From the NCBI RefSeq assembly GCF_017696175.1, contig NZ_JAAORE010000003.1, forward strand, positions 1 through 64,000: DNA of 64,000 bases, read 5' to 3'. This stretch comes from Prochlorococcus marinus XMU1404 (GTDB taxonomy: Bacteria > Cyanobacteriota > Cyanobacteriia > PCC-6307 > Cyanobiaceae). Every line of letters starts with the position of its first letter. Positions within the stretch are counted from its first letter, which is position 1. Shown here one piece after another: positions 2,328 to 32,386 of the stretch. A program made the translations under genes and the position numbers. The notes beneath the pieces were generated by a model that was not told where the DNA came from, did not search any database, and saw nothing but the letters and a program-made list of their open reading frames with translations.

Positions 2328-2401
2328 CGGGGCGTGGCGCAGCTTGGTAGCGCGGGTGCTTTGGGAGCACTAGGTCGCAGGTTCGAATCCTGTCGCCCCG
2401 A
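2328..2401 (+). tRNA. tRNA-Pro (anticodon TGG), integration target
   Basis: A complete 74-base cloverleaf. The acceptor stem CGGGGCG pairs with CGCCCCG, followed by discriminator A. The anticodon arm is GGTGC-TTTGGGA-GCACT, giving anticodon TGG, and the T arm contains GGTTCGAATCC. CCA is not encoded. The 3' half from the anticodon arm onward recurs 12 times downstream, so this gene is the attachment site of the array and presumably the only functional copy in the window. Confidence 0.97.
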
Positions 2402-16707: not shown

Positions 16708-16938
16708 CTAATTTGTATCAGCTATATTCTTAAAGAAATCACAATAAGTCATCAATTCTGATTCGGTGGGAAGGGAAGGAAGTGGAAGAGCTTTCTTATT
16801 AGTGAAGTAATCACAATTAGGACTAACTCTTTTTAAGTTGTTTTCTAATTGGTCGAACTGAGCATCAGAAATTAGAGCATTACCATTACGATAATTTTCG
16901 TCATACCAATTAATTCTTTCTTCTAGATAAGTGCTCAT
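16708..16938 (-). CDS. Small protein resembling the N-terminus of NAD+-dependent DNA ligase
   Basis: 76 residues. The stretch INWYDENYRNGNALISDAQF with DQLENNLKRVSPN resembles domain Ia of LigA (pattern Y..YY..G...ISDAEYD.L...L), which binds NMN. The adenylation domain is absent. Its ATG overlaps the recombinase stop (TAATG), so it is translated with the integrase. It could be a ligase remnant recruited as a recombinase partner, or an unrelated fold. The resemblance is my reading of the pattern. Confidence 0.5.
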   Translation of the reverse strand: MSTYLEERINWYDENYRNGNALISDAQFDQLENNLKRVSPNCDYFTNKKALPLPSLPTESELMTYCDFFKNIADTN

Positions 16939-18206
16939 TATCCGACCCTATCAAATACTTTGGTTAGATTTTTATTTTGGAATCTAGCGTAAGATTTCAA
17001 GTTTGTATCGGGGTCATGTCCCATTGCTTCCGCAATTTGAGTTAGTGATCTCATAGTTCCATCATCTTGCGGTCTAGTGTGAGCAACATAAGCATATCTA
17101 TGGCGGAAACTATATGGAGTTAACTCAAGACCTTCTGATTGAGCTTCATGGCATAAAACTTCCCAACAGCCACTAACACTTCTTCTTCTTAAATACTGAC
17201 CAAGGTTCTGCCCTCCTTTTCCTTTTGGTATTTCTGGTAATTTTTCTCCCGCTGCTAATCTTCCGATTAATCCTTCTGACCAATCAAAAGGAGTTCCATC
17301 TAAATCTAGAACCTTTAAACCTAATAATTGTCTTTCTCTAACCCTAGAATTTTGCTTCTGATAAGTACACCAAAGTTCTGGTTTTTTACTATGTTTGTTT
17401 CTTATTACCAAATGTCTAAGCTCTTCTGGTCTTAGACCAAATACTGCACACAGTTGGACAGCAAACTTCCATTTTTGTGCTTGCTCATTATCTGGGTTAA
17501 AGTCAAAAGCTTCCACCAATCTATTGATTTGAAAATCAGTTAATGGATAACCTATTCTCTTATTTGTTTTGACTTGGTTATTGCTCAACCTTTCTTCCAT
17601 AGAAAGTTCTGGAGGAAGCCAATAAGATGGGAAGTCTTCCTCCCTAACGCAATAATTTAGAAACTTATTTAGAGAAATTCTCATGTGTCTTCTCATTTGA
17701 GTTCCAAATTGCCAACCAATTAATTTTTTATATTGGCCATGCTTATATTCATTAAGAACTTTCTTACATAAAGTCTTTGCATTTTCTGGTTTGTGTTTGG
17801 TTCGATTCATATATTCCATAACTCCTTCTAAAACAGGCAAGTGCTTTTTCTTCCAAGTAGCTTCTCCAATAGCGAAAGAGTTTGCTTTTCTGTAATTAAC
17901 TAAAGCTCTTTCCCAATCAAGTTGGATTTCTGTAGAAGTTTGCTTAGTTAATTTGAAAGCAGTTTTTAAAGGTATTTTCTTATTGCTTTCCAAATATGCT
18001 TCCGCACCAATCCTTATAAAGTCAAAAGCATCTGGCCATTGATCTTTCTGCCATGCAAAAGGAAGGTTTATTGATGAGAATCCTTCTTTCTTATTTCCTA
18101 CTAAAAGACGCATATTTCCTCTATCGTTTGAAACTTGCCAACCAGAACCAATCTTGCTCTTAATAGCGTATCTAAACTCTTTAACCCAACTTTCTGTTGC
18201 AGACAT
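16938..18206 (-). CDS. Tyrosine recombinase (integrase) of cassette E0
   Basis: 422 residues. An N-terminal arm-binding-like part (1-90), a helical core-binding region (about 95-210) and a catalytic domain. Catalytic residues: R259 in FGLRPEELRHL, Y365-x-x-R368 in TPYSFRHRYAY (a tyrosine where the first histidine of HxxR is usual), H397 in EAMGHDPD and nucleophile Y406 in KSYARF. The gene reads away from the tRNA copy 146 bases to its right and is followed by a coupled ligase-like gene. It should integrate DNA at the tRNA-Pro 3' half and is the only recombinase in the array, so it may also move the other cassettes. Confidence 0.9.
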   Translation of the reverse strand: MSATESWVKEFRYAIKSKIGSGWQVSNDRGNMRLLVGNKKEGFSSINLPFAWQKDQWPDAFDFIRIGAEAYLESNKKIPLKTAFKLTKQTSTEIQLDWERALVNYRKANSFAIGEATWKKKHLPVLEGVMEYMNRTKHKPENAKTLCKKVLNEYKHGQYKKLIGWQFGTQMRRHMRISLNKFLNYCVREEDFPSYWLPPELSMEERLSNNQVKTNKRIGYPLTDFQINRLVEAFDFNPDNEQAQKWKFAVQLCAVFGLRPEELRHLVIRNKHSKKPELWCTYQKQNSRVRERQLLGLKVLDLDGTPFDWSEGLIGRLAAGEKLPEIPKGKGGQNLGQYLRRRSVSGCWEVLCHEAQSEGLELTPYSFRHRYAYVAHTRPQDDGTMRSLTQIAEAMGHDPDTNLKSYARFQNKNLTKVFDRVG

Positions 18207-18351: not shown

Positions 18352-18397
18352 GTGCTTTGGGAGCACTAGGTCGCAGGTTCGAATCCTGTCGCCCCGA
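18352..18397 (+). repeat. tRNA-Pro 3' half, att copy 1
   Basis: 46 bases identical to the tRNA from GTGCTTTGGGAGCAC to the discriminator A, followed by CCA. It is the right end of E0 and the left end of E1. Confidence 0.95.
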
Positions 18398-18534
18398 CCA
18401 TTTTAAAACCAAGTCATACTAGCGAGTTACCCAGACTCGCTTTTTTATTGGGAAAATCTGTCCGTTAAGATTGCGGACAAATTGCGGACAAATTTTAAAT
18501 TCTTTTCAACTTAGATAAAAAAGTCAAAATTGCT

Positions 18535-20379
18535 TTAACTTCTTGATTTCTTAAAACATAACTCCTTTTCAGCATCAGTTATTAAACTCTTTGGTAAATG
18601 ATTTGCAGCGAATAACCATGTACCCTCTTCTTCCCATAATGAATAAATATAATCAAACTCGTTTTCCAAATCCTTTAATTCCATCAATCGAACCTCATCT
18701 CGACCACCCCACTTAAAATCATTTTGTATTTCATCTGGACAGTCCCAAAATTGCACAGTTTTATATAAAAGAACTTGCTCTACAAAGTATGCGGCTTCTC
18801 GAGAGGGGAATACCTGCTCTAGCAGTAAATTTTTGTACCATCTTTTCTTACCTCTTTCAATAACATCGAATGTAATTCCAGGTTTCAGATAATTAGGATA
18901 ATTGTTTAAATCAAAAATATAAAAACTAGTATCTTTTTTAAATTCATACAAACCAGTTTGATTTAAAGCATGCTGAATAGAATCTCCAAGATTTCCTTGA
19001 TCTCTTACTTCATAATTATTTCTTCGTAGAGTCCTGAAAATCGTTGATGCTTCAATTCCATACTCTTTTTCAAGAATTGCAGTTGGTTTTCCTAACTTAT
19101 ATTTTTCACAAAGTTCGATTTCAATATTTGCCTTTAAACCATGACTCCACTTTTGTTCTTCTTGAGTTCTAGTTTTTACTCCCTCTTTCTCAAATAAAAA
19201 GAATAGTGCTGAATTTGAACAATTAAATTTATTTGATAAATATTCCAAAGATTTCCCCTCTTGATATAGCTTTATAATTTCTTTTCTATCATCAATATTT
19301 ATTGCTCTATTTGCTTCTTCAGAAGTTCTTAATTTAACGTTTTGGTGTTTTAGGATAGTATTTGTTTTCTCGCGAGTAATTTCGTATTTTTTAGCTATTT
19401 GATAAACAGACAATCCATTCTTGTAATCATCGCTAATTTTTCGATATTGAGGTTCTAAAGTCAAATCTCTTTGGGTTCCTCTTATCTCAATATTATTTTC
19501 TTTAAGTACTCTTGTAATAGCTGAACTTTTTACACCTAACGAATCAGCAATTTTGTTTGAACTTTCACCATTTTTATATCTTTCACAAATAATATCTTTA
19601 GACTCCTCCTTAATCATATTTTTTGCTTCTTCGTAGGTTCTTAGTTTTATGTTTCTCTTGATGAGGAAAATTCTTAATACAAAATTGTGAATTTTATAGT
19701 CTTTAGATATTCTCTTTTGAGACTTCCCTGATTTGTATTCATTACATATCTTTAATTGAATATCTTCTGAAGTTTCATTTATAAACTTATTCGCAGCACT
19801 TTCATATATTTCCTCTTGTTTTTTTATTTCTTCTTCTGATTTTTGCTTAATCTCTTTTTTTGTAAAAGAATTTTTTCTTTTAAGTGTATTTCTTATAGTC
19901 CCATCACTAACTTTATATAACCTGGCAATAGAAGCTCTGGTTTCTCCATTTTTTGATCTTTCAACAACATCATCTTCCTCTAAATTTGATAGTGATTTGC
20001 GATCATTTACTGTTGTTTTGACTTTTAAAATATTTCTTATAGTTTCACCGCTTTTATAACCCATAGCTTCTGCAATTTTTTTATAAGTCAATCCTCCTTC
20101 TCTTAATTTTTTTGCTTTTATAAATTCATCTTCTGATTTATTTCGATCTTTTTTTGTTGCTTCGCCTACTCTTTCTAGTCCACAAGTGGGACAACCCCTA
20201 TAAGGTTTATAAATGAGTGCTCTTGGTTGAGCGGGCCAAAATCCATGATTAATTACTTTGCATCCAACTTGAACAGTTTGAGATGAGGTTTTGTATTGAA
20301 CTCTTGAAAAATCATATAAATCTCCCCAAATACTTTTACATCTTTTAAGAAATTCTGTTTGAGTTAATTTACGTCCCAT
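18535..20379 (-). CDS. Multi-HTH protein with GIY-YIG-like nuclease end
   Basis: 614 residues. The N-terminal 70 residues (YDFSRVQYKTSSQTVQVGC, then GCPTCG) resemble the zinc-binding module seen beside homing and HNH-type nucleases. About seven helix-turn-helix repeats fill residues 85-460, each like YKNGESSNKIADSLGVKSSA, which suggests reading of a long DNA site. The C-terminal 125 residues (NYLKPGIT, then FPSREAAYFVEQVLL) resemble the GIY-YIG nuclease fold. It fills its cassette alone. Likely a large site-specific DNA-binding or cleaving protein; homing or element-defence roles are both possible. Confidence 0.65.
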   Translation of the reverse strand: MGRKLTQTEFLKRCKSIWGDLYDFSRVQYKTSSQTVQVGCKVINHGFWPAQPRALIYKPYRGCPTCGLERVGEATKKDRNKSEDEFIKAKKLREGGLTYKKIAEAMGYKSGETIRNILKVKTTVNDRKSLSNLEEDDVVERSKNGETRASIARLYKVSDGTIRNTLKRKNSFTKKEIKQKSEEEIKKQEEIYESAANKFINETSEDIQLKICNEYKSGKSQKRISKDYKIHNFVLRIFLIKRNIKLRTYEEAKNMIKEESKDIICERYKNGESSNKIADSLGVKSSAITRVLKENNIEIRGTQRDLTLEPQYRKISDDYKNGLSVYQIAKKYEITREKTNTILKHQNVKLRTSEEANRAINIDDRKEIIKLYQEGKSLEYLSNKFNCSNSALFFLFEKEGVKTRTQEEQKWSHGLKANIEIELCEKYKLGKPTAILEKEYGIEASTIFRTLRRNNYEVRDQGNLGDSIQHALNQTGLYEFKKDTSFYIFDLNNYPNYLKPGITFDVIERGKKRWYKNLLLEQVFPSREAAYFVEQVLLYKTVQFWDCPDEIQNDFKWGGRDEVRLMELKDLENEFDYIYSLWEEEGTWLFAANHLPKSLITDAEKELCFKKSRS

Positions 20380-20512
20380 ATTATTAAGATGAATTTAATA
20401 AATTGCGGACAAATTGCGGACAAATATATCTTAGTTTGACATGACAAACTCCGCAAAATTAAACGAAAATATAATAATAGCTTTAAAACCTAGTGCTGCA
20501 CTTGTTCTGTGC

Positions 20513-20559
20513 GGTGCTTTGGGAGCACTAGGTCGCAGGTTCGAATCCTGTCGCCCCGA
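20513..20559 (+). repeat. tRNA-Pro 3' half, att copy 2
   Basis: Identical to the tRNA from GGTGCTTTGGG to the discriminator. Junction of E1 and E2. Confidence 0.95.
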
Positions 20560-27692: not shown

Positions 27693-27830
27693 CTCAATCA
27701 AATTCAATTCATACTAGCGAGTTTCCCATACTCGCTTTTTTATTTCTCATTTGTCTTAAATCTCTCCGCGCGAGGAATGGGCGAGGATTTGTATAGCTTT
27801 GAATAATTTTAGAGGTTAGCTCGCCCGTTA

Positions 27831-27953
27831 TTACTGATATTTTTTTAGTAATCGGTTATAAATGACCAACAATACTATTACCCCAACTATTCCATAAATT
27901 GCATGGTATGGGTCGTGATGATTCTGCCAAAGCTCCTTTAAAAATTCCTTCAA
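27831..27953 (-). CDS. 40-residue single-helix protein
   Basis: Starts at TTG. KEFLKELWQNHHDPYHAIYG, then a helix GVIVLLVIYNRLL and a basic end. It resembles the 41-residue protein at 41470-41595 (KEFFGFTIDLWHNQPTTVIG) in length, the LW.N signature and topology, so both belong to one family. Function unknown. Confidence 0.55.
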   Translation of the reverse strand: MKEFLKELWQNHHDPYHAIYGIVGVIVLLVIYNRLLKKYQ

Positions 27954-28059
27954 TACTTCATAGTCATTGCCCAATGAGAATAACACCCATAAGATTTTTT
28001 CTAATTAATTTGCATAATTACTTACAACTGTTATTTTTAGTGGGCTTCAATAAATTCAA

Positions 28060-28284
28060 ATGCAAGATCAAAAAATTGAAAAGATAGCAGCAGTTGCAGT
28101 AAACATAACTAAGGTGCTGGTAATAATTTATCTTGGCTTCGTAGAAGTATTTAAAATTGGAAAATTACTTAGAGAGAAGTTAGATTCTGAATTTGATATT
28201 TCTCGAAAATGGGCTTCACAAAATTATTCAATTCTAAAAAAAAGACTAGCGGAACAAAGAGTAGCGGGTGTTAAAGAGAATTAG
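28060..28284 (+). CDS. Small membrane-anchored protein
   Basis: 74 residues. One helix (AAVAVNITKVLVIIYLGFVE), then a charged helical tail (RKWASQNYSILKKRLAEQRV). Family not recognised. Confidence 0.55.
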   Translation: MQDQKIEKIAAVAVNITKVLVIIYLGFVEVFKIGKLLREKLDSEFDISRKWASQNYSILKKRLAEQRVAGVKEN

Positions 28285-28296
28285 TAAGCCTTTCAT

Positions 28297-28674
28297 TTAG
28301 GGATTAAAGTCTCTACATTTTGATCTTTCGTTTTCATAATCTTTGATGGCAGTATCCCATTCTGATAAATCTGCTTCTTTCCCAGAAATATACAATTCCA
28401 TTTGTTTCGAATAGTTCGCTGATTCAATCCGACTATTGAATGAGGCATTGCAAAAAATTATACTTCCAAATTTTTCATAATCCGTATAATCTCTTTTTGC
28501 AGCAAATTCTGCATTTGCCCTTTTCTTATTTAATTCTTTATATTTCAAATCCTCAATACTAGGTTTTGAAAAAAGTATAGATGGTTTCTTCTGTACATTT
28601 AGATATGCAATAAGGCAAACACCAATAAGAACGACGGCAAATAATCTAATTAACCAAGTGTTAGTTTTATCCAT
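28297..28674 (-). CDS. Membrane-anchored hypothetical protein
   Basis: 125 residues. An N-terminal helix (WLIRLFAVVLIGVCLIAYL) acts as anchor, followed by a charged helical domain with two cysteines (IIFCNASF, RSKCRDF). Family not recognised. Confidence 0.6.
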   Translation of the reverse strand: MDKTNTWLIRLFAVVLIGVCLIAYLNVQKKPSILFSKPSIEDLKYKELNKKRANAEFAAKRDYTDYEKFGSIIFCNASFNSRIESANYSKQMELYISGKEADLSEWDTAIKDYENERSKCRDFNP

Positions 28675-28710
28675 TTAATAAAGCGGTACAAAATCGCCAA
28701 GTAATAAGTA

Positions 28711-28998
28711 CTAATTGTTTCTATTGAACTTATTGTGTTTTTTATTATTGGGTCCCTTTCTTTTCTCAGCCTCATTAACCCTTATCTCTCTTCCCATCCA
28801 TTCAACATCTTGAAGATCATCAATAGCTTTTTTTTCAGAATTATGATCATTTAAATCTACAAAAGCAATACCTCTTTTTCTTCCTGTTTCTCTATCAAGA
28901 GGTAAATAACATTTCTTTACTACTCCATAATTACTAAAAAGTTGCTCAAGATCTTCAACCTCAGTTTCCCAAGATAAATTCCCAATAAAAATAGTCAT
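28711..28998 (-). CDS. RRM-type RNA-binding protein
   Basis: 95 residues from the ATG at 28998; the sequence before it in frame does not belong to the fold. RNP2 is IFIGNLSW and RNP1 is KRGIAFVDL, in the standard RRM order, followed by a basic asparagine-rich tail (RKGPNNKKHNKFNRNN). Cyanobacterial Rbp proteins of this size bind RNA and are often cold-induced or membrane-targeting. Being a cassette passenger, it may be an extra copy. Confidence 0.9.
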   Translation of the reverse strand: MTIFIGNLSWETEVEDLEQLFSNYGVVKKCYLPLDRETGRKRGIAFVDLNDHNSEKKAIDDLQDVEWMGREIRVNEAEKRKGPNNKKHNKFNRNN

Positions 28999-29125
28999 TT
29001 CTTTAATTTTTGAAGGTACAAATAGTTGCTTTGGACTAGTGAAGTTATCTCCAATCAAATGCTTCCATTATTCTTACTCTAACTCTTTATTCGCTATGTA
29101 ACGAGTAGAAAAACTTACATATACA

Positions 29126-29467
29126 TTACAAACCCATTGCTCTTCTTAGCTTTGCAGCTTCATCTAAACCTTCCATAACTGTAAACATGGAATTTTCAGT
29201 TGCTTCTTTTCTTAGCTTTGAAAGCTCTTTATATTCTTCAGATTCATAAGCTTCAACGGCTGCCCTCATTGATGGGAATTCACAAATAATGGCTAAATTG
29301 ACATCCTCGGTCCTTTCCTTCCCTTGAGGCTCTGTATCTTTTGCAAAGACTTGGCCTCCAACCTCTTTCAGCCATGGACCAACTTTAGTTACATATTCAT
29401 CAAATAAGTCCTGATTAATTATTTTTGCCGTTGATATCCAGTAACCTTTAGCCCCTTTTTTATCCAT
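29126..29467 (-). CDS. DUF1330-like protein
   Basis: 113 residues without a signal peptide. DUF1330 core: GYWISTAKIINQDLFDEYVT, GGQVFAKD, AIICEFPSMRAAVEAYESEE. Related to the exported protein at 26918-27265. The C-terminal part has a short helix LDEAAKLRRAMGL. Function unknown. Confidence 0.8.
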   Translation of the reverse strand: MDKKGAKGYWISTAKIINQDLFDEYVTKVGPWLKEVGGQVFAKDTEPQGKERTEDVNLAIICEFPSMRAAVEAYESEEYKELSKLRKEATENSMFTVMEGLDEAAKLRRAMGL

Positions 29468-29493
29468 TTATTTATATCAGTATTCCAATTAGA

Positions 29494-29628
29494 TTACATC
29501 ATCTCGTATTGATCAAATTTTGTTTTTAACTTTGCAGCTTTATGAATTAATCCAACTGCCTCTTTTCTTCCAGTAGCTTTTTGAGCCTTGCGCATTAAGT
29601 CGGCATATTTTTTGTTTAGTTTTTTCAT
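29494..29628 (-). CDS. 44-residue small basic protein (copy 1)
   Basis: MKKLNKKYADLMRKAQKATG RKE... with a helical, basic sequence. A paralog of equal length is at 49433-49567 (MKKINKKYAEIMHQADSAVG). The conserved pattern KKYA..M..A....GRKE.V.L..KAA supports a real family. Function unknown. Confidence 0.65.
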   Translation of the reverse strand: MKKLNKKYADLMRKAQKATGRKEAVGLIHKAAKLKTKFDQYEMM

Positions 29629-29853
29629 TAGTTTACTTTTTAGTTTTACATACACAGGCTAAATAAGTGTTTGTCATTCTTGCATTTGATCTTTGGGATA
29701 GATCAACACAATTTGCTTATCAGAAAGTATTTGACGCTTGCAGGTGGGATTCTTTTTCAAAAATTCTTTAGCTGGTCAATATTGCTTAGTCTTATCTCTA
29801 CCTGAGATTAATTAACAATAACACAAGAACAAAAATAGATCTTTGAAAGATGC

Positions 29854-30267
29854 TTAATTGAAAGGGAAAGTATTCTTAGTAGGAGATATAAAAAGCGCTT
29901 CAAAAACAATTCCAGTCAAAGCAATAGGCAATATCCAAATAGCGATAAACCTATGATCAAAAAATCTTAAATGGTCTTCTCCTTTAAAAACACTTTTTAA
30001 AGAGGTGTACAAAGTTTCTGGTCTTTTATAGGAAGGGCCATTTTTAATTGGAGAATATGGTTTTATAAATGCAGAAGAAGCTGAGAATTTTGCAATTTTT
30101 CTAATTAAATAAATAGGTAATACCCAAAGGGCTAAATATCTTCCACCTAACCACTGTCTCGCATTAGGGAGAGCATATTCTTTAATAGATTTATTCTCTG
30201 GCATTCCAGATTCCAAATTCTTGTAGATATTTTCTAATGAGGATACTTTTTGTGATTCATTGATCAT
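29854..30267 (-). CDS. Membrane protein with two similar halves
   Basis: 137 residues. Two related segments, RYLALWVLPIYLIRKIAKF and HRFIAIWILPIALTGIVFEA, each with an R(Y/F)(L/I)A.W.LPI helix, suggest an internal duplication. The loop between is basic and proline-rich. Family not recognised. Confidence 0.6.
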   Translation of the reverse strand: MINESQKVSSLENIYKNLESGMPENKSIKEYALPNARQWLGGRYLALWVLPIYLIRKIAKFSASSAFIKPYSPIKNGPSYKRPETLYTSLKSVFKGEDHLRFFDHRFIAIWILPIALTGIVFEALFISPTKNTFPFN

Positions 30268-30720
30268 TTGTTTTTAAGAAAAAATTAACCTTAAAATAAA
30301 AATATTCCTAACTACTAAAATAACTAAAACGTAGTTAAGAATATTTTCGTTGGCTAGGTTCATAAAGACGGAATCTATACCGTTGCAGATTCGCCAAATA
30401 TCTACATATTCTTTATAAAGAAAAAACTCTTTTTTAAAAAGTAAATAATATACATAACCATGAATAAAATTTAATGACTAGATTTCTGTAGAAAATTAAC
30501 TTTAATATTCCTGACTAATAAAAATTATTTAAACCTCATTTTCTAAGATTGCGAAAAAGAAAATGAGGCCAAAGGGAGGTTCTCATTACGAACCGCTTTA
30601 TCAAAGGTAGCGGTTAGTAGATTGCCCTAATATCTACTTACATATTTATATAATGAGATTTAAAATAGAGGAAGATTAATTTTATACAAATAAGTGTTTA
30701 ATATTTTATGTAATTATTGT
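30268..30720. ncRNA. Gene-free region rich in strong hairpins, candidate RNA(s)
   Basis: Four structures: 30301-30345 (AATATTC.TAACTAC/GTAGTTA.GAATATT), 30350-30397 (TTGGC/GCCAA enclosing GAATCT/AGATTC), 30534-30568 (CCTCATTTTCT/AGAAAATGAGG, 11 bp) and 30578-30615, where GGTTC/GAACC and AACCGCT/AGCGGTT share bases and exclude each other. No open frame of note. Strand and product unknown. Confidence 0.5.
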
Positions 30721-30819
30721 TTAGGAAAAACTAATCAATGCATTAACTATAGTTATTGAAAGATAAAAAAATGCATAAAGAGAAACTGCAAAAAATAAAT
30801 ACTGTTCTATGGGAATCAT
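30721..30819 (-). CDS. 32-residue membrane protein
   Basis: MIPIEQYLFFAVSLYAFFYL then STITIV-type helix end. One long helix. It is the last gene of a minus-strand group with the PsbF-like gene. Could be a small photosystem-associated peptide; not assignable. Confidence 0.5.
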   Translation of the reverse strand: MIPIEQYLFFAVSLYAFFYLSITIVNALISFS

Positions 30820-30854
30820 GACAAGGTATTAATTAAGGGGTAAGAAAAATTTGA

Positions 30855-31043
30855 TTAATTTTTTGTTAAAAAGATATTCTCTAAAATATAACTTTGTTCT
30901 ATTGATTCATTTTTAAGAGAAATATTTTTTGGCAAATTATTATTCGAAGAATTAAAAGCACCCCATTTTTTTAGCCCAAATAAGGTATAAAAAAATGCAA
31001 TTAAAAATGGTGCTCCAACAATTAAAAATCTAATGTCCATCAA
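30855..31043 (-). CDS. Paralog of the N-terminus of the PsbF-like protein
   Basis: 62 residues. DIRFLIVGAPFLIAFFYTLFGLKKWGAF parallels the start of the next gene ([28 protein letters not shown]), but the PsbF-like C-terminal domain is missing. It begins nine bases after the PsbF-like gene. Probably a duplicated, shortened relative with one helix. Confidence 0.6.
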   Translation of the reverse strand: MMDIRFLIVGAPFLIAFFYTLFGLKKWGAFNSSNNNLPKNISLKNESIEQSYILENIFLTKN

Positions 31044-31052
31044 AATTTCCTA

Positions 31053-31349
31053 TTAATAAGATTTAAACTGCATTGCCAATATTGCTCCAAGGAAGAAAAC
31101 AGTTGGAATCCCTAGGGCATTAACTGCTGCGGTTCTTACAGTAAATACTGGATAACCTTCTGCTGGTCTGCCAACATCAGGAATTAATGCTGAATCTTCC
31201 CATACTTGATAATTTTTAAAAGGAGTTACTCCCTTCTTTGGTAATCCTAGTGGCGTTAATCTAAATACATCCCACCTACCTAACCAAAAGACTGTAAATA
31301 TCCATGAGAATATTATTGGTGTAATAACAAGTAAAATCCTGAAATCCAT
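31053..31349 (-). CDS. PsbF-like two-helix protein lacking the heme histidine
   Basis: 98 residues. Helix 1: [20 protein letters not shown]; a proline-rich loop; helix 2 near 66-95: [20 protein letters not shown] followed by [10 protein letters not shown]. Helix 2 matches the cytochrome b559 beta subunit (PsbF), whose FTVRWLAVHxLAVPTVFFLG carries the heme-ligand histidine; here that position is N77. The true PsbF is about 45 residues and lacks helix 1. It is therefore a PsbF-derived protein unlikely to bind b559 heme in the usual way. Likely thylakoid, possibly photosystem II associated. Confidence 0.7.
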
Positions 31350-31570
31350 TTCTAAAAAGTAATATTTAATTTGATTATTATTTTGTCTTTTTTAGTTAAA
31401 TAAATGATTTGATCATTAACTTATATTTAAAGAAAAACCCCTAATAACGTTGTTTATAATCATTAGTAACATCATGAAATGATTAATTGAATTATTTAAA
31501 GTATATTTTTTTTGATTGAGATATTTAGATATTTTTTTTGATGTAGATTTTAGTTAATTAAAAAACAAAT

Positions 31571-31939
31571 ATGGAAACCTTTAGATTCTTACTTTTTGGT
31601 TTTGCAGGGGTTAGTGTAGTTTTCTGGGTGGCAATAATAGCTTTATGGCATGCATACATGTTTCCAAGATTCTTCAATGAAGATAAAGGTTTAAATTCTG
31701 TTATCAATCAAGAAATAAAAGTTTCAACAGATCCAATTTTAGGCAGTTTGGTTAACAGCAATAATTTCAGAAATAGAGATAAATATTCAATGAAAGGTTT
31801 TGTTATTGCAGACTTTTCATCTACAAGTAGTAATTTCAAACTAAATAAACTCTACACAACAGTAATGATTGGAGTTACTTTTGCAAGTTTTATTTTTCTC
31901 ACTTATGGATTAAGCAGTTCAATAACAAAGGTAAGTTAA
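31571..31939 (+). CDS. Two-helix membrane protein
   Basis: 122 residues. N-terminal helix (FRFLLFGFAGVSVVFWVAII), a 70-residue loop and a C-terminal helix (VMIGVTFASFIFLTYGL). Read divergently from the PsbF-like operon and followed at once by a 27-residue gene. Family not recognised. Confidence 0.6.
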   Translation: METFRFLLFGFAGVSVVFWVAIIALWHAYMFPRFFNEDKGLNSVINQEIKVSTDPILGSLVNSNNFRNRDKYSMKGFVIADFSSTSSNFKLNKLYTTVMIGVTFASFIFLTYGLSSSITKVS

Positions 31940-32023
31940 ATGGAATCTATATATGTAATTGTTTTTATTACTTGCTTTGTTTATTTAATTTTTGACTCAT
32001 TCAAAAATATAAATATTAAATAG
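31940..32023 (+). CDS. 27-residue membrane peptide
   Basis: MESIYVIVFITCFVYLIFDS and a short basic tail. It begins directly after the stop of the preceding gene, so likely co-translated. Confidence 0.5.
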   Translation: MESIYVIVFITCFVYLIFDSFKNINIK

Positions 32024-32027
32024 ATTG

Positions 32028-32153
32028 CTAATGTTTTTTACCAGTTAATAAAATTTTTCTTCTTATATAAAAGAATACCAATGTTGTTATTATCATTACA
32101 GGTGGATGAAATGATATTGAATTTAGATATTCGAAGTAATCAAATGTTGCCAA
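32028..32153 (-). CDS. Possible 41-residue membrane protein (TTG start)
   Basis: Convergent with the previous gene. ATFDYFEYLNSISFHPPVMI, then a helix and a basic tail RRKILLTGKKH. No ATG or clear ribosome site; weak. Confidence 0.35.
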   Translation of the reverse strand: MATFDYFEYLNSISFHPPVMIITTLVFFYIRRKILLTGKKH

Positions 32154-32386
32154 ATTTTTGCTCGTAATTTCTTAAAACTATAATTCAACTCTCAAATCCT
32201 TATTGATTTAAATAGATCAATATCTTGTATAAAATGCTAGTTAAATTTTTCAACACAAATATTTTGCGGACAAATTGCGGACAAATTGCGGACAAATATT
32301 ACTTTATTTGTCACGACAAACCTCGCAGAACTAAGCAAAAAAATTAGCTATAGATTGAAAACCTAGTGCTATACTATGGCTGATGA

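Follow-up and report, generated by a model that had tools for sequence, protein, structure and literature searches.

What does a gene do that stands alone between two fragments of a tRNA gene and encodes a long array of helix-turn-helix (HTH) units with a nuclease-like end? We examined this question for P0001, a protein of 614 amino acids (aa) encoded in the first 64,000 nucleotides of contig NZ_JAAORE010000003.1 of Prochlorococcus marinus XMU1404 (hereafter the window; the source genome, G000, comprises 1.67 Mb in 3 contigs). P0001 is probably a sequence-specific DNA endonuclease that acts alone and descends from homing endonucleases; its target would most likely lie off its own chromosome, and its gene travels as cassette cargo. 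The open reading frame (ORF) of 614 residues that an initial annotation of the window had placed at 18535-20379 was borne out and is coded on the minus strand; the plus strand of this interval is full of stops. An ortholog in genome G608 has the same start methionine and aligns over 614 of 614 residues with zero gaps, which supports the start call. From the N-terminus, the gene and its parts are:

18535..20379, minus strand, ATG at 20379: nuclease gene P0001, 614 aa (ORF; G608 ortholog, ungapped)
20146..20379, minus strand: zinc-type (DUF723-like) motif, aa 1-78, with Cys40, His45, Cys63 and Cys66 (PHROG 559/681)
20008..20133, minus strand: HTH unit 1, aa 83-124 (unit profile; helices in the AlphaFold model)
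19867..19989, minus strand: HTH unit 2, aa 131-171 (unit profile; Pfam HTH_23, best stretch 138-168)
19639..19767, minus strand: HTH unit 3, aa 205-247 (unit profile; HTH_Cbp1, best stretch 205-336, below cut-off)
19480..19608, minus strand: HTH unit 4, aa 258-300 (unit profile; Pfam HTH_38, 264-295)
19327..19455, minus strand: HTH unit 5, aa 309-351 (unit profile)
19168..19296, minus strand: HTH unit 6, aa 362-404 (unit profile)
19003..19131, minus strand: HTH unit 7, aa 417-459 (unit profile)
18682..18930, minus strand: T5orf172-like GIY-YIG domain, aa 484-566, with Y487, K499, G501, R509, E534 and G559/E562/R564 (conservation; PHROG 681, weak; hhalign with control)
18538..18681, minus strand: C-terminal helical tail, aa 567-614 (alignment and AlphaFold model)

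The positions of the GIY-YIG catalytic set (Tyr, (Y/L)KxG, Arg, Glu) are all present in P0001, including the Arg (R509) and the Glu (E534) that the initial annotation had proposed to look for in a nuclease-like end. The equivalents of Y487, K499, G501, E534, G559, E562 and R564 were invariant in 15 aligned C-terminal domains of the family, and those of I502, R509, Y515 and R527 nearly so. Similarity to nucleases was likewise found: hhalign of the family C-terminal domains with five Pfam-accepted T5orf172 proteins gave a probability of 93.1% (E 3.2e-7), against 0.2% for the negative control with the HTH units. PHROG 681 matched both the zinc-type unit and, weakly, the nuclease end of P0001, and it matched the C-terminus of the relative in G013 at 1.7e-8. 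The PHROG 681 matches, the profile-profile comparison with its control and the residue conservation together point to a link with T5orf172. The family profile also recovered a small protein elsewhere in the source genome (G000:C1:355690, locus L045; E 1.9e-5), which matches Pfam T5orf172 at 2.1e-9 and is followed by an ORF that we take to be a Vsr-like mismatch endonuclease.

At the other end of P0001, residues 1-100 matched PHROG 559 (HNH endonuclease; 2.8e-7) and PHROG 681 (endonuclease; 2.4e-6), and the four Cys/His residues were all retained in the G608 ortholog, in agreement with the zinc-knuckle start described in the annotation. DUF723 in Pfam gave sub-threshold matches for relatives of P0001. 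Between the two ends, Pfam HTH models matched above their curated cut-offs, HTH units 3-7 followed each other at a step of about 53 residues, and the AlphaFold model of the full protein (pLDDT 59.4, two-sequence alignment) consisted of seven three-helix units. The profile made from the seven units counted 8 units in the G223 protein, 5 in that of G467, 4 in a Burkholderia phage protein, 1 in that of G643 and 7 in P0001, the last by construction; the independent support comes from the matches of the other proteins and from Pfam. In six shuffled proteins, no single domain scored better than E 0.12. Approximately seven repeats, as first described, were thus confirmed; their number is less exceptional than had been claimed, since the Synechococcus relative in G223 has eight.

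The closest fold match of the full model in the PDB was the tandem-HTH protein 2lvs (Cbp1; probability 0.99, E 0.029), and no PDB match reached E<=0.001. P0001 scored 99.3 bits with the NCBIfam model HTH_Cbp1 (NF040595), below the equivalog cut-off of 140. The Pfam scan at E<=1 returned many HTH families and a few weak non-HTH matches below their cut-offs, with no nuclease or zinc family among them, and the PDB sequence search gave nothing useful. Linkers between HTH units 3-7 were more alike between the orthologs (57/65 positions) than the helices, taken over all units (138/209; Fisher p 5e-4), which suggests that the DNA contacts of the helices may have drifted while the linkers held.

P0001 and its G608 ortholog are under purifying selection, with 73.6% identity and a Nei-Gojobori dN/dS of 0.18 (0.14-0.45 when the HTH units are taken singly); among the best conserved parts was the catalytic stretch (81.9% identity, dS saturated). 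The 15-domain profile found matches in 9 of 266 genomes of the genus, a four-domain profile (A2) in 13 of 400 genomes of the family, and an HTH-type profile (A7) in 4 of 386 genomes of the phylum, all of which belong to that family; the genomes for the family and the phylum were sampled, and not each of these sets contains every known member. The HTH-array members (G000, G608, G467 and G223) formed one clade in a tree of 19 domains (support 93/92), kept in 94% of 200 bootstrap trees. The two Synechococcus-like relatives carry 5 (G467) or 8 (G223) HTH units ahead of the same C-terminal domain, and the other family members that were read have mostly zinc-type repeats. A bolder reading, which we regard as speculative and rather unlikely as a whole, is that each HTH unit of about 53 residues reads the next stretch of DNA, that the number of units (5, 7 or 8) sets the length of the target, and that units are lost, gained and diversified as in arrays of the TALE or zinc-finger kind; HTH units would have replaced zinc units once, in marine picocyanobacteria, and the nuclease would now serve as a one-gene weapon against other elements, spread by tRNA cassettes.

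Searches of genome contigs and viral contigs with P0001 as the query recovered no relative. Among viral contigs, neither the C-terminal alignment nor four zinc- or HTH-type relatives as queries recovered a relative, an alignment of three HTH-type proteins recovered one contig with a match confined to the first 103 residues, and the G223 protein retrieved its own entry. Against phages, tblastn with full-length P0001 yielded 162 records, none of which covers 80% of it, the listed ones matching its zinc or HTH parts; tblastn of two C-terminal domains against phages gave no match.

The surroundings of the gene indicate how it may travel. The features concerned are:

2328..2401, plus strand: intact tRNA-Pro (TGG), target locus of the array
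16938..18206, minus strand: tyrosine recombinase of the neighbouring cassette (PHROG 1 integrase, 7.6e-9; shared arm word TCCGTGGAAT)
18352..18397, plus strand: tRNA-Pro 3'-half fragment, left cassette border (46 bp, 0 mismatches)
18471..18492, plus strand: left iteron pair, TTGCGGACAAA twice at an 11-bp step
20403..20424, plus strand: right iteron pair, TTGCGGACAAA twice at an 11-bp step
20514..20559, plus strand: tRNA-Pro 3'-half fragment, right cassette border (46 bp, 0 mismatches)

Positions 2356-40495 of the window hold 12 cassettes, several of them single-gene, with a direct repeat of the 3' half of tRNA-Pro between one and the next. The last 46 bases of this tRNA have 12 further copies in the window, all on the plus strand (4 exact and 8 with 1-3 mismatches), and none in 20 shuffled windows. 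The annotation was right to describe the gene as alone in a cassette, because no other ORF of at least 50 aa lies between the border fragments at 18352 and 20514. Like a tycheposon, the nuclease cassette sits at a tRNA locus between direct repeats derived from the tRNA, and the same holds in G608, where the ortholog occupies the first cassette after the intact tRNA-Pro, alongside an Mrr type IV restriction enzyme. The nuclease cassette has no tyrosine recombinase of its own; an integrase lies in the neighbouring cassette, the candidate arm repeats of which differ from those of the nuclease cassette.

The two arms of a cassette resemble each other: the longest common word averaged 12.8 bases for arms of the same cassette and 7.9 for crossed pairs (permutation p 5e-5). 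In most cassettes the two ends have a repeat of about 10-12 bp in common: the shared word is 10 bases or longer in 10 of the 12, and the cassettes at 27693 and 32433 showed no clear end-repeat pair. Some crossed pairs also reached 10-12, and one reached 24 (left end of the nuclease cassette with the right end at 32.3 kb). We also observed three TTGCGGACAAA iterons at 32264-32297, at the right end of the cassette 27693-32386, whose left end repeat differs; this cassette looks fused or recombined.

In the mechanism that we propose, the zinc motif and the seven HTH units would bind one after another to a single long DNA site, next to which the T5orf172-like GIY-YIG domain is predicted to cut. At the tRNA-Pro locus, the gene would travel as cargo in a non-autonomous cassette whose TTGCGGACAAA arms are recognised by a tyrosine recombinase that moves it in trans. 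The target would most likely be absent from its own chromosome, lying either in rival mobile elements or phages, which we favour, or in an allele into which the gene homes. A nuclease with a long modular DNA-binding array, as first suggested, is well supported. The accompanying idea that it clears the tRNA site was judged unlikely and rejected: the intact tRNA-Pro persists in the window together with 4 exact and 8 near copies, and a nuclease directed at this repeat would cut the chromosome that encodes it at many places.

Several known systems bear on this proposal. Of 229 phage T5orf172 homing endonucleases, 200 are reported to have one or more of three zinc-finger domains, and often several of them (PMC10448857), in keeping with the mostly zinc-type repeats of the family members outside the HTH-array clade. 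P0001 resembles these enzymes, and PHROG 681, in combining repeated DNA-binding modules with a T5orf172-like nuclease end; the zinc-type relatives are laid out in the same way, and a single zinc motif of this kind is kept in P0001. P0001 is unlike them in that its repeats are HTH units (5-8 in the HTH-array members) rather than zinc fingers, and in being carried in a cyanobacterial tRNA cassette; the term helix-turn-helix occurs 0 times in the main text of that paper. The protein QBX06483.1 of phage BcepSaruman, annotated as a GIY-YIG homing endonuclease, also joins a GIY-YIG domain to HTH units (four, by the same unit profile), but its GIY-YIG domain comes first and is recognised by Pfam, its units are fewer and no zinc motif was seen. 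HTH and winged-HTH are listed among the domains that occur in GIY-YIG architectures (PMC1564403), and our literature search returned no paper joining endonuclease, tandem helix-turn-helix and GIY-YIG. P0001 is best placed as a probable unusual relative of known phage homing nucleases, and not as a wholly new kind of enzyme.

For the presumed target, the relevant precedent is Odn, the origin-directed nuclease of phage ICP1, a T5orf172 enzyme that is reported to be directed against a rival mobile element by a swapped DNA-binding domain (PMC8263062). What we propose for P0001 is analogous; Odn differs in its RepA_N-type DNA-binding domain and in that its cleavage was demonstrated in vitro, P0001 being known from sequence. 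Near some other family members we found T5orf172 proteins, including two ORFs in G013, an exonuclease and an N6-methylase; of ten chosen neighbours of relatives, 4 were nucleases or methylases by Pfam. A role against other elements thus seems more likely than plain homing because of the Odn precedent, the company of Mrr in G608 and these nuclease and methylase neighbours. The cassette itself recalls tycheposons and the tRNA-repeat additive islands of marine bacteria, which share the tRNA target, the tyrosine recombinase and the tRNA-derived repeats (PMC10872708), and from which it differs as a one-gene unit without its own recombinase. If P0001 cuts DNA, it would combine a nuclease and an unusually long HTH array in a single chain, and the variation of the family in number and type of DNA-binding units would make the way in which such arrays read DNA directly testable. 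P0001 also connects nucleases of the homing type with the small cassettes, bounded by tRNA sequence, from which genomic islands of marine cyanobacteria are built.

A number of results weigh against this reading. The hhalign probability dropped to 46% when the four HTH-type domains were used alone, PHROG 681 matched the C-terminus of P0001 weakly (0.0063), and neither P0001 nor its C-terminus matched a GIY-YIG or T5orf172 family in Pfam. The PDB profile search gave no match for the C-terminal domain. Both AlphaFold models were poor (pLDDT 59 and 62), and the 50 best Foldseek matches of the C-terminal domain model included no GIY-YIG protein, none reaching E<=0.001; both models were built on two-sequence alignments and do not settle the fold of this domain. 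P0001 was not listed as a defence protein by PADLOC, in which two weak matches covered part of the HTH region, and 6 of the ten neighbours picked from among all those of relatives were neither nucleases nor methylases by Pfam. Finally, only 5 of 10 family genes, surveyed in 9 Prochlorococcus-genus genomes with 30 of the genome's 38 tRNAs, adjoin tRNA-Pro fragments: those of G000, G608, G466, G643 and G013 lie within 209 bp of one, and those of G042, G034, G523 (two) and G041 do not. The notion that family genes are in general tRNA-Pro cargo was accordingly rejected.

There is a real, if minor, chance that the gene instead encodes a purely selfish homing endonuclease, which would cut unoccupied alleles of its insertion site and propagate through their repair, the tRNA cassette being a chance carrier. 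The closest described architecture is that of the phage T5orf172 homing endonucleases with repeated zinc-finger domains (PMC10448857). PHROG 681 and some of the phage matches are annotated as endonuclease or putative homing endonuclease, others as hypothetical. Some zinc-type relatives adjoin housekeeping genes, presumably pyrE- or argJ-like ORFs. However, the window gene and its G608 ortholog both lie in tRNA-Pro cassettes, the borders of which belong to a recombinase system, and mobility therefore needs no homing.

A DNA-binding regulator that kept the nuclease fold and lost cutting, in the manner of CapR, seems quite improbable. CapR is a repressor related to the DNA-binding parts of nucleases (PMC10448857), and tandem-HTH proteins such as Cbp1, the archaeal CRISPR repeat-binding protein, act without cutting, their units lining up in order along the DNA site (PMC10883916). 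P0001 shares the tandem units with Cbp1, which has three and no nuclease. Against this stand the retained catalytic positions of P0001 and a catalytic region that ranks among the best conserved between the orthologs.

The least probable alternative, to which we give very little credence, is that P0001 helps its cassette, the HTH array binding either the TTGCGGACAAA iterons or the tRNA site so as to aid excision or integration or to clear the site: iterons do occur to the left and right of the gene in the window and in G608 (where one left copy is changed), lie on one side in G467, and their 8-base core was absent from the 8 zinc-type loci searched, but the HTH nuclease of G223 has no TTGCGGACAAA pair nearby, the repeats in other cassettes differ and come without a nuclease, and exact tRNA sites remain uncut in the chromosome. 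The distribution of the iterons also speaks against this alternative. The exact pair occurred in 30 of 265 genomes of the genus (44 places, reduced to one locus per genome and examined to at most about 1.5 kb on each side), and the reversed control in none of the rows listed. A tRNA-Pro fragment lay about 70-95 bp from the iterons at 30 of 30 loci; this nuclease was present at 2 (G000 and G608), the remaining 28 having no match to it within this reach. The iterons thus belong to the recombination system and the nuclease is cargo, and we rejected iterons as binding sites of the HTH array as the leading interpretation.

Integrases at iteron loci were the window's own neighbouring one and that of L111 (G570), a locus without the nuclease where an integrase starts beside the TTGCGGACAAA iteron pair and the contig ends just beyond. 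The L111 integrase is a candidate for the type of recombinase that moves the nuclease cassette; it is 27% identical to the window integrase. In the Synechococcus-like G467, the iterons, with single-base changes, lie beside a tRNA-Arg, upstream of an integrase-like ORF and of the five-HTH nuclease. This ORF aligned with the window integrase over 46 residues (E 5e-6) and with the L111 integrase over 216 residues (23%, E 8e-10).

Further traces of the family were observed in other genomes. Fossils of the last ~24 nuclease codons, at ~89% DNA identity, were present in G087 (L050:1628-1701) and G076 (L051:9336-9406), ~1.2 kb from a tRNA-Met and adjoining relatives of the window sequence at 26.7 kb and 28.0 kb. 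In three genomes, one of them of another genus, zinc-type members (L028 at ~7.3 kb, L029 at ~7.4 kb and L083 at ~9.4 kb) adjoin, within a few hundred bases, the same conserved gene, which we take to encode an EVE-like domain protein; the spot beside it is a possible nuclease hot spot.
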